Shown: positions 3,929 through 40,858 of the stretch, in pieces
Numbering within the stretch: position 1 is the first letter of the stretch
Layout: every line of letters starts with the position of its first letter
NCBI RefSeq assembly: GCF_014218335.1
Contig: NZ_AP023367.1
Coordinates: 77,001-141,000 of the forward strand
Direction: 5' to 3'
Origin: Anaerocolumna cellulosilytica
GTDB taxonomy: Bacteria > Bacillota > Clostridia > Lachnospirales > Lachnospiraceae
Length of the DNA: 64,000 nucleotides
Made by a program: the position numbers and the translations under genes
The notes under the pieces: generated by a model
Seen by the model: the letters and a program-made list of their open reading frames with translations, nothing else
The model's database searches: none
Told to the model about the DNA's origin: nothing

Positions 3929-3956
3929 CAATGTGATTATTTTTTAAGGTGTATAT

Positions 3957-4043
3957 AGCTCCCACTGCATGCCGCATCTACTTAAGATGTGGCACTGCCT
4001 TAAATCTGGGTGTGAAATTGTTTTAGTTTTCAATTTCACATTA
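3957..4043 (-). repeat. Dispersed two-hairpin repeat, copy A
   Basis: On the minus strand this 87-bp element starts at the marR stop codon. It has a first hairpin with 10-bp perfect arms (4031-4040 and 4011-4020), then an ACCCAGATT spacer and AGGCAG. A second hairpin with CATCTT/AGATG arms follows, and the element ends in GGCATGCAGTGGGAGCTA. The same order of parts occurs on the plus strand at 20371-20453. It may also act as the 3' end of marR, though no uridine run follows the stems. Confidence 0.65.
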
Positions 4044-4487
4044 GACACCTGATAATTTCTTTAATGTTCTTATTAAATTTCTTTTTTCATCATCTGTTAA
4101 AACCGAAAATATTTCATTAATATTTTCCTTATGCCTTGGAAATATACCTTGTATTAAGGCCCTTCCTTTATCGGTAATCCGAATCAGATTCACTCTTTTA
4201 TCAGCAGGATCGCTGCATCTGCTAACCAATCCATCCTTTACCAGATTATCTATGACTACCGTCATATTGCCTCCGGTTGATAATATTTTATCTATAATCT
4301 CACAAATCCTCAAGTCGCCTTTATGGTATAGTACCTCCAGTACTGCAAATTGTGAAACGGTTAACCCACCTTCCTTTATTGTCTTATACTCCCTTTTATG
4401 AACACTTTGGGAGCAACGGCTTAAGGCAATTAATGCTTTCAGATTAAGTTCTTCTGTATTACCATATTTTGTTTTGTTGTCTTCCAT
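4041..4487 (-). CDS. MarR-family transcriptional regulator
   Basis: This 148-residue winged-helix protein has the MarR layout. An N-terminal dimerisation helix is followed by GGLTVSQFAVLEVLYHKGDLRICEI, then the recognition region ILSTGGNMTVVIDNLVKDGLVSR, then the wing CSDPADKRVNLIRITDKGRAL. DPADKR is the family signature in the wing. The ligand is unknown. A 20-bp perfect palindrome centred about 20 bp upstream of the start probably mediates autorepression, and its core recurs before the adjacent nitroreductase gene. There is no clear Shine-Dalgarno sequence before the ATG because that space is taken by the palindrome and an AT-rich stretch. Confidence 0.92.
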   Translation of the reverse strand: MEDNKTKYGNTEELNLKALIALSRCSQSVHKREYKTIKEGGLTVSQFAVLEVLYHKGDLRICEIIDKILSTGGNMTVVIDNLVKDGLVSRCSDPADKRVNLIRITDKGRALIQGIFPRHKENINEIFSVLTDDEKRNLIRTLKKLSGV

Positions 4488-17101: not shown

Positions 17102-17912
17102 TGCGCCAATCGGTGTGTTTGATTCAGGAATCGGCGGCTTAACGGTAGCCAGAGAAATTATGAGACAGATTCCGGGCGAAACGATTATATATTTTGGTGA
17201 TACAGCCAGAGTACCTTATGGAAGCAAATCAAAAAAGACTATTATAACGTATTCAAGACAAATTGTTCGATTTTTACAGACAAAAAATGTTAAGGCTATT
17301 GTAATAGCCTGTAATACAGCCAGTGCTTTTGCATTAGAGACAGTTGCATCTGAGGTATCTATTCCGGTAATCGGAGTGGTAAAACCCGGGGCAAGGATTG
17401 CAGCAAAGGCAACTAGAAATGGAAATATTGGTATAATAGGAACGGAAGGTACTATAAGCAGTGGTATCTATAATACTTACTTAAGTGAAACGAACCCTAC
17501 GGTAAACGTCTACGGTAAAGCCTGCCCTCTATTTGTTCCGTTGGTGGAAGAGGGCTGGCTTACTGACCCTGTAACTGTGGAGGTGGCAAAAAGATATATA
17601 AAGGAACTATTAAGTTATGATATTGATACTTTAGTTTTGGGATGCACTCACTATCCATTGATACGTCATACCATTGGAGATATTGTTGGTAATAATGTCA
17701 CATTGGTAAATCCTGCTTATGAAACAGCACGTGAATTAAAGAAGGTTCTCGAAAAAGAAGGAATTGAAAGTACGGCAACAGCAGGAGAACATAAATTCTA
17801 TGTAAGTGATGGTGCGGAAAAATTTCAGAAATTTGCCAATACGATTCTTCCCTGTGAAGTAGTGGAAACAAAGGATATTAATATTGAAAGTTTTGCGGAT
17901 TCATTAATTTAA
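17091..17912 (+). CDS. murI: Glutamate racemase
   Basis: A 273-residue racemase converting L- to D-glutamate for peptidoglycan. The two catalytic cysteines appear in the motifs VIACNTASAFAL and LVLGCTHYPLI. The N-terminal FDSGIGGLTVAREI and FGDTARVPYG complete the family signature. The ATG at 17091 is chosen because GGAGG lies upstream within the end of ddl; a longer reading to 17034 has no ribosome binding site. It overlaps ddl by 11 bp. Confidence 0.95.
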   Translation: MASSAPIGVFDSGIGGLTVAREIMRQIPGETIIYFGDTARVPYGSKSKKTIITYSRQIVRFLQTKNVKAIVIACNTASAFALETVASEVSIPVIGVVKPGARIAAKATRNGNIGIIGTEGTISSGIYNTYLSETNPTVNVYGKACPLFVPLVEEGWLTDPVTVEVAKRYIKELLSYDIDTLVLGCTHYPLIRHTIGDIVGNNVTLVNPAYETARELKKVLEKEGIESTATAGEHKFYVSDGAEKFQKFANTILPCEVVETKDINIESFADSLI

Positions 17913-17950
17913 GAGGTATAATAGCTGGTTGTAAGTAAACTTAGGACAAG

Positions 17951-17987
17951 AAAGGCAGTATCACAGACAAGCCTGTGATATGCAAAG
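17951..17987 (+). other. Leader hairpin resembling the dispersed repeat tail
   Basis: AGGCAGT is followed by a hairpin (ATCACAG/CTGTGAT, about 17959-17980) and ATGCAAAGGG, directly before the DUF1934 start at 17997. The order AGGCAG, hairpin, ATGCAnnGGG is the same as in the 3' half of the repeats at 3957-4043 and 20371-20453. The stem sequence differs. Confidence 0.4.
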
Positions 17988-17996
17988 GGTATAAGA

Positions 17997-18431
17997 ATGA
18001 AAAAAAATGTACTGGTGTCAATATCTGGACTTCAATATGAAATCGATAAGGATGAAGCGGTAGAAGTAATCTCTGTTGGTGAGTATTATAATAAAAATGG
18101 TAAACATTATGTACTTTATGAAGAAATTTTAGAAGAGGTGGCTGGTGTAACCAACTGTACCATTAAAATTACAGATAATCAGATTGATATTATTAAAAGA
18201 GGTGCCAACAACGTTCATATGGTTTTTGAAACGAATAAAAAGAATACCACCTATTATCAGACTCCTTTTGGTGAGTTACAGATAGGCATCTACACAAACC
18301 AAATAGAAGTACATGAAGAAGAAGATAAGATTATAGCAGACATTAACTATGGTCTTGACATAAACTATTCCTTTGTGTCAGATTGTCAGATTCAAATTAA
18401 ACTAACTTCCAAAAAACAACAGGAAAGCTGA
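17997..18431 (+). CDS. DUF1934 family protein (YwiB-like)
   Basis: The 144-residue protein shows the DUF1934 beta-barrel pattern. It has VLVSISGLQYEIDKDEAVEVISVGEYY, the YVLYEE strand, and an internal TTYYQTPFGELQIGIYTNQIEV stretch. The lipocalin-like fold suggests a small-ligand or protein-binding role, but the function is not known. It follows murI by 84 bp and may be in the same operon. GGGTATAAGA upstream of the ATG is a weak ribosome binding site, lying at the foot of a hairpin that could limit translation. Confidence 0.82.
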   Translation: MKKNVLVSISGLQYEIDKDEAVEVISVGEYYNKNGKHYVLYEEILEEVAGVTNCTIKITDNQIDIIKRGANNVHMVFETNKKNTTYYQTPFGELQIGIYTNQIEVHEEEDKIIADINYGLDINYSFVSDCQIQIKLTSKKQQES

Positions 18432-20145: not shown

Positions 20146-20370
20146 CTTTGGACTAATCCGCTTACCGTGGATATTATACCACAATGTAAGAAAAAAATCT
20201 TTATAAATATTATGTTCTTTACAATTTTCTTAAGGATTATTAAATATTTTGCTATTTCTTGTACTATTAAAAGAATATGATATAATGTAGAAGATAATGA
20301 AATTGGACTCTCAGAACAGACATAACAAATCCTTTGATTCATTAAAAGGAAGATAAGCGGCAGTGTTTAT

Positions 20371-20453
20371 TAGTGTGAATTATCGAAATATAATTTACAC
20401 CCTGATTAGAGGCAGGGTTCCATCTTTTTAAGATGTGGCATGCAATGGGAGCT
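20371..20453 (+). repeat. Dispersed two-hairpin repeat, copy B
   Basis: Same order of parts as 3957-4043, inverted relative to it. Hairpin 1 has arms TGTGAATTAT (20374-20383) and ATAATTTACA (20390-20399). CCCTGATT, AGGCAG, a CATCTT/AAGATG hairpin and GGCATGCAATGGGAGCTA follow. The 3' 18 bases match copy A at all but one position. It lies 145 bp upstream of pncB. Confidence 0.65.
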
Positions 20454-20458
20454 AGTAT

Positions 20459-20541
20459 GAGACAAGCAGCAATTATGCCAAGGGTTTAAATTCATCCCGA
20501 TTTGTATGCAGCAGGTATTTTAAGCAGTCTCTAATGCATAC
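20459..20541 (+). other. Possible pseudoknot in the pncB leader
   Basis: GAGAC (20459-20463) can pair with GTCTC (20527-20531), and GTATGCA (20504-20510) with TGCATAC (20535-20541). The two stems interlock, as in an H-type pseudoknot. It stands about 55 bp upstream of pncB. This is a by-eye fold only; no known riboswitch is recognised. Confidence 0.3.
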
Positions 20542-20597
20542 GATGGGAGTTTAATAAAAGCGCCTTTACGGGCACCTATGAACAAAGGAGTAAACAC

Positions 20598-40565: not shown

Positions 40566-40687
40566 TCTAAAACTATGAAGTGGTGGGAAGTAGAAACCAA
40601 TCCATATTGTCTCCCAAAGTATAGCATACAGTCCTTGGAGAGGGACTATAAACACTACTACCTATAATACGAGGATGTGAATATAAA

Positions 40688-40858
40688 ATGGCATTTTATT
40701 ATTATTTATCGTTAATTTCAGTTATCATTCTTTATGTAAATACAGTAACTCTTATAAAAAAGTTATTAAAAGATCAAGATATAACTACAAATACCGTTAT
40801 AGGTTGTGTATGTTCAGCAGCTGTTGTAGCAAGTATATTAGCTATATGTGGTAATTAA
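40688..40858 (+). CDS. Small two-helix membrane protein (56 residues)
   Basis: The frame from ATG 40688 to TAA 40858 encodes 56 residues. Helix 1 is FYYYLSLISVIILYVNTVTLI, the charged turn is KKLLKDQD, and helix 2 is TVIGCVCSAAVVASILAICG with three cysteines. A GAGGA lies 12 bases upstream, farther than ideal. The pattern suits a small membrane peptide, but nothing identifies its role. It sits directly beside the IS110 remnant. It could also be a chance ORF in AT-rich DNA. Confidence 0.4.
   Translation: MAFYYYLSLISVIILYVNTVTLIKKLLKDQDITTNTVIGCVCSAAVVASILAICGN

Follow-up and report, generated by a model that had tools for sequence, protein, structure and literature searches.

Dispersed leader elements in Anaerocolumna with a possibly split, pseudoknot-joined Shine-Dalgarno sequence

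The window, the 64,000-nt stretch of Anaerocolumna cellulosilytica DNA analyzed here, carries two copies of a short element that we call class 1. Copy 1 lies on the minus strand between marR and a nitroreductase gene (3955..4044; 76.7 bits, E 2.8e-16 with covariance model R1). Copy 2 lies on the plus strand in the 5' leader of a nicotinate phosphoribosyltransferase-like (NAPRT) gene (20370..20455; 79.8 bits, E 5.2e-17). R1 was trained on nine genomic copies that included copy 2 and left copy 1 out. A first-pass annotation had described both copies at these places, one abutting a stop codon and one in a leader, and the closer reading bears it out: the TAA that opens copy 1 (4041..4043, minus strand) is exactly the marR stop codon, and both copies keep the shared order of parts that it described, hairpin, linker, hairpin, tail. 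The window also holds an ordinary T-box leader (RF00230, 121 bits; 1470-1674) upstream of a prolyl-tRNA synthetase-like gene.

Copy 1 is the better folded of the pair. On the minus strand, a 10-bp first hairpin in the MFE fold (4011..4040; arms 4031-4040 and 4011-4020) is followed by the conserved linker CCCAGATTTAAGGCAG, defined by alignment (3995..4010), and by a second hairpin found in both the single and consensus folds (3967..3998; arms 3985-3994 and 3970-3979). The second hairpin has one bulged G and stands on a GCA/TGC foot (3996-3998 with 3967-3969). The tail TGGGAGCTA (3956..3964) contains a Shine-Dalgarno (SD)-like GGGAG with no start codon after it. In copy 2, all on the plus strand, a first hairpin (20373..20400; arms 20373-20383 and 20390-20400) and a second hairpin core (20421..20435; arms 20421-20426 and 20430-20435) lead to the tail GCATGCAATGGGAGCTAG (20438..20455), with GGGAG at 20447-20451. 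An ATG 7 nt past the GGG of this tail opens a 10-codon ORF, a possible upstream ORF (20457..20489). A decayed second unit ending in ATACGATGGGAGTTTAA stands in tandem with copy 2 (20456..20554), and the promoter TTGTAC-16-TATAAT lies upstream of the whole insertion (20259..20286).

Class 1 is a dispersed family. A BLAST search of the genome with the first copy alone returned 16 places, and R1, at E<=0.1, found at least 68 copies across its 5.43 Mb. The first-pass annotation had staked its claim on further copies with conserved pairing; both were found, so it passes its own test. When copies in this genome were mapped against genes, 22 of 34 preceded a same-strand ORF start by no more than 250 nt, and seven lay only after a stop codon. 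Within the genus, 13 of the 15 genomes contain R1 copies, with a maximum of 75; the 26 genomes outside it contain none. G010, G011 and G208 are rich in copies, and G003 and G004 are free of class 1. An exact 19-base pattern searched across 85,000 species hit Anaerocolumna records only, a genus of the Lachnospiraceae. Stems differ between copies and keep pairing, as had been noted, with compensatory changes in 5 of 19 pairs of a small class-1 set. Copy 1 folds far better than its shuffles (z -4.2); owing to imperfect pairing, copy 2 alone does not (z -1.2).

The conserved class-1 tail is, as judged from its sequence, a predicted ribosome-binding site that combines a GGGAG SD with a fixed start-codon position. 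Several copies end in ATGCAATGGGAGCTAG-N-ATG, which puts the start codon 7 nt past GGG. Across genomes only 12 of 87 copies lie at the start codon of a long ORF, a count that speaks against the explanation favored below. The effect of class 1 in the window is most likely modest and lineage-specific, and many copies resemble relatives that have spread or are decaying. A third, very short module also occurs, consisting of a hairpin and then CAGA(T/C)GGGAG; ~7 nt further downstream comes a start codon or the next module (L297, the engB leader of genome G004; L262, L241 and L254); it is sometimes in tandem with class-1-like units.

A search for the hairpin and tail without the start codon revealed a larger sister class. 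The pattern matched mostly a second architecture, class 2, and in 11 of 12 class-2 copies a long ORF had its start codon 6-8 nt past GGG; the reversed control pattern gave 0 matches. An alignment of 26 copies (A5) gives the order P1, with GAAAGGA and then TGCCAC in its loop, the P1 3' arm, GTGGCA, P3 and tail. P1 is an 11-bp covarying hairpin with AGAAAGGA in its loop. About 2 nt after AGAAAGGA, GCCAC pairs with GTGGC downstream of the P1 3' arm, forming an H-type pseudoknot. The tail GGGTGTAAA follows P3, with the start codon 7 nt past GGG. Class 1 differs in having neither AGAAAGGA nor pseudoknot and in carrying a contiguous GGGAG in its tail.

Covariation supports both the hairpins and the pseudoknot of class 2. 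In A5, 94.3% of pairs are standard, and P1 and P3 cells changed on both sides number 81 versus 29.6 in shuffles. Sliding the arms by 1-3 columns lowers pairing to 35-46%, a control that favors the structure because it was read from the same sequences. The first-pass suggestion that RNA structure, and not a simple repeat, is under selection is thus well supported for this sister class and moderately for the class with two window copies. In a larger alignment of 99 copies, 95 of them distinct (A6), the pseudoknot is 93.5% paired, with both-side changes in five of six pairs, a level reached by 0 of 500 shuffles; model R2, for class 2, does not contain the pseudoknot, so A6 was not fitted to it. 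Three pseudoknot types occur across genera, TGCCAC:GTGGCA and, outside the genus, TGCCCA:TGGGCA and TGCAAAC:GTTTGCG. Complementarity scores are 10.9 for a copy's own arms, 10.4 after a swap within type and 7.1 after a swap between types. GAAAGG, GCCAC and GTGGC stand out as highly conserved in A6, more so than P3, and copies without P3 still keep all three motifs. One copy (L267) has its hairpin relocated to precede GTGGCA, and both arms are retained.

Class-2 leaders sit at the starts of many unrelated genes. This genome has at least 129 R2 matches (E<=0.01), a lower bound as 150 of 6755 candidates were scored; the engB leader, for example, lies at G000:C1:4902491-4902599. An ORF of at least 60 aa adjoins 87 of the 96 copies read; some of the other nine precede short genes, such as one for a rubredoxin-like protein. 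Across the family, at least 21 of 250 genomes and at least 20 of 249 genera hold a match, again a lower bound with 15 candidates scored per genome. Rfam 15 has no family at its gathering threshold here, and nothing at E<=1 overlaps an element. We found nothing in the open-licence literature on Lachnospiraceae pseudoknot leaders or a "split Shine-Dalgarno". Type-C leaders in other Lachnospiraceae (L268, L270, L284 and others) stand before tRNA-modification-like genes with MiaA-, MnmG- and TadA-like N-termini. We rejected by inspection a coding function for class 2, represented by an ORF from TTG/GTG AAA GAA that spans 37 codons in the arrays of genome G010, since unit lengths vary by single bases and keep no reading frame.

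Another reading is a riboswitch-like or protein-bound cis-regulatory RNA that would mask or free the ribosome site on a signal without acting as a structural bridge. The pseudoknot and the tandem copies would suit such a device, as would two mutually exclusive helix pairs: P1 versus GAAAGGAU:AUUCUUUC, and the pseudoknot versus the foot of P3, both of which use GGCA. The forced alternative fold lies just ~4 kcal/mol above the consensus MFE. Against this stands the gene set. Judged by N-terminal sequence, the genes (gltX-, pyrH-, trmD-, leuD-, purC-, gpmI-, engB- and rdgB-like, among others) share no evident pathway, and the set differs among sister species. Moreover, the conserved parts complement 16S rRNA or each other and leave no separate aptamer core. 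We regard this explanation as distinctly unlikely. Still further down the scale, and very improbable, is a transcription attenuator in which P1 and a T-rich stretch form a terminator. Many copies do have CTTTTTATTTG after P1, but the hairpin itself is rich in A+U and encloses a loop of ~35 nt, interruptions break up the T stretch, whose columns are only ~52-79% conserved, and the spacing of tail and start codon would go unexplained.

The window itself holds a derivative of class 2. The first-pass annotation had pointed to a weaker third instance before the DUF1934 gene, and R2 matches there (17890-17999; 39.4 bits, E 3.7e-6). On the plus strand, the class-2-derived leader (17948..17999) runs from AAGAAAGG (17948-17955) through a hairpin, GCAGTATCACAG...CTGTGATATGC (17955-17983), to the tail AAAGGGTATAAG, which ends exactly at the ATG (17997-17999). 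Its layout identifies it as a shortened class-2 copy, with AAGAAAGG fused to P3 and a plain hairpin as the bridge; in two sister genomes, G006 and G008, the DUF1934 leader is of the complete pseudoknot form. In engB of these two genomes, AGGAAAGGA stands 10 nt before the ATG, and the leader is likely a deletion derivative that would use AGGAAAGGA directly. The G006 engB leader (L287) also carries a MITE-like insert with long inverted ends, taattgcgaaacta...tagtttcgcaatta, within a decayed class-2 leader. A possible fourth window copy (40603-40723, minus strand; R2 E 0.0039), which ends in GGGAGACAATATG and whose ATG opens only 10 codons, was set aside as most likely a chance match or a relic.

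An ordinary SD is missing beside the start codons of class-2 genes. We defined a core SD as GGAG, GAGG or AGGA within -18..-5 of the start. It is present at 8 of 87 class-2 starts versus 31 of 41 ordinary window ORFs (Fisher p 6e-14), a comparison in which R2 matches are biased towards tails without GGAG because R2 contains tail and start-codon columns. With a tail-free motif the count is 6 of 82, but these loci were mostly fetched by R2. Random 14-mers contain a core SD in 10% of cases, and ORFs of the loci in 176 of 320, both these and the control ORFs being taken from the first ATG. Comparing three genes across the genus, we found a core SD in 30 of 31 leaders without the element versus 3 of 8 with it (p 5e-4); the three exceptions are related rdgB leaders that have both pseudoknot arms and a core SD. 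Forms without AGAAAGGA mostly have GGGAG, GGAG or GGAGG in the tail, and class-2 starts have a weak GGTG or GGT nearby.

The missing SD may instead be found upstream. In its general textbook form, which the host's own end may not match exactly, the 3' end of Gram-positive 16S rRNA has AGAAAGGAGGTGATCC as its complement, and AGAAAGGA complements its final 8 nt. Predicted duplexes with the 16S tail are worth -9.1 kcal/mol for the left half, -5.9 for the right and -19.9 for the two joined as one strand. The SD half in the P1 loop is predicted to be mostly unpaired (mean 0.71 vs 0.46 overall). It lies 55-136 nt from the AUG (median 85), a spread that means any bridging geometry cannot be uniform.

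Both classes spread to new sites. The NAPRT promoter and gene are conserved in the genus, the promoter genus-wide in an alignment of sister leaders, and among the sequences aligned, copy 2 with its decayed second unit is found in the NAPRT leader of this genome only; the segment is absent from the ten sister sequences. Four sister genomes keep the marR-nitroreductase gene order, all without the element. Here and in G009 alike, the MarR reading frame closes with LSG(V/L)-stop, which places the start of the element at the native stop or directly after it. Eight class-2 copies in G010 share 93% identity, compared with 37-39% in their 130-nt flanks, and head-to-tail arrays with exact junctions occur. 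The element is thus insertion-polymorphic, that is, mobile or mobilised. At the same NAPRT leader position, A. aminovalerica (G002, L173) has a different tandem repeat, GGAATGAGGAAAATGGCAAGCTTGC..., and the insert in L174 looks related; this position may serve other leader repeats too.

Such mobility is what selfish DNA would produce. A non-autonomous MITE- or REP-like element could insert between an SD and the start, or at the TA of a stop codon, its hairpins serving transposition and its tail only keeping it harmless. The near-identical copies with unrelated flanks, the tandem arrays and the empty sites agree with this, as does an enrichment of SDs directly upstream of class-2 copies (39% vs ~13%); at 39%, these do not amount to a native SD before every copy, an idea we rejected. 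Several class-1 copies begin on the upstream stop codon: in L021, L026, L039, L041 and L115 the first TAG or TAA is exactly the stop of the upstream ORF, which suggests TA-containing stop codons as candidate targets. As regards a target-site duplication, elements have TA or TAG at both ends, and the empty marR site is compatible with TA, in species too diverged to define exact junctions. A test for MITE-like terminal inverted repeats found none, the ends TAGTGTGAAAT and GGGAGCTAG matching inversely only as TAG/CTA, and no autonomous relative was found. Y1_Tnp had no match in G010, G011, G006, G007 or G008, despite 24-75 class-1 copies in each, and we rejected a REP/RAYT origin on that ground. 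A phage origin was also rejected, the exact tail pattern, the one pattern searched, not being found in IMG/VR. A transposon end also predicts neither conservation of AGAAAGGA and a compensated pseudoknot in old, diverged copies nor the loss of a normal SD. We consider it unlikely as the full explanation, with any transposition mechanism itself conjectural.

The explanation we favor, and think somewhat probable, is a family of dispersing 5'-leader elements with their own ribosome-binding site, in which the class-2 pseudoknot joins a split SD. The pseudoknot and P3 would bring AGAAAGGA beside the GGTG of the tail, and these halves, ~85 nt apart, would pair as one SD with contiguous 16S rRNA. Opening of the pseudoknot should then lower initiation, and so should pairing of AGAAAGGA with the UUCUUUC arm of P1 instead. 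A switch is possible if the UUCUUUC arm pairs with GAAAGGAU instead; across 63 copies, MFE folding favors P1 in 43 and this alternative in five. Class 1 would be the short form of the leader family. The dispersed, paired element of the first-pass annotation stands within this picture; the tail as SD and start, the larger class at gene starts and the insertion polymorphism had escaped it, and the phenomenon is much larger than it stated.

Precedents exist for parts of this design. In T4 genes 25 and 38, RNA structure brings a distant SD near the AUG and raises translation, in single genes with simple structures and a spacing of 22-27 nt (PMC3014915). Class 2 likewise has structure between SD and AUG, with AGAAAGGA upstream and pseudoknot and P3 between, and, allowing for the model bias and the weak GGTG or GGT, no adequate SD beside the AUG. 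Unlike T4, it serves more than 100 genes per genome through a pseudoknot and hairpin spanning ~85 nt, with an SD apparently divided in two and dispersed as a repeat. H-type pseudoknot leaders such as S15/rpsO and T4 gene 32 also place a pseudoknot near the ribosome site, but these are single-gene autoregulatory operators, whereas here many unrelated genes are involved. Ribosome standby sites share an accessible upstream ribosome contact and a structured leader; in class 2 the upstream sequence is a defined AGAAAGGA beside a conserved pseudoknot. REP/BIME, BOX, RUP and Correia repeats are short, intergenic, hairpin-forming and tandem; they come in tens to hundreds of copies, and mobilisation in trans is probable. 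The present elements resemble them in all these respects, probably including mobilisation in trans, but class 2 is fixed at the start codon with an SD and a pseudoknot, and no terminal inverted repeat or partner transposase was found.

More than 100 genes per genome may use a split, pseudoknot-joined SD, a genome-wide, lineage-specific mode of initiation switchable by RNA folding; we put this at a little under an even chance. Known split ribosome sites come from isolated phage genes. If the reading is true, a repeat that spreads such sites, with species differing in the genes that carry them, would form a natural library relating RNA structure to initiation. Start prediction and expression models that rely on a nearby SD would fail for roughly 2% or more of the genes in these genomes, and the family would show one way in which a dispersed repeat can rewire translation.
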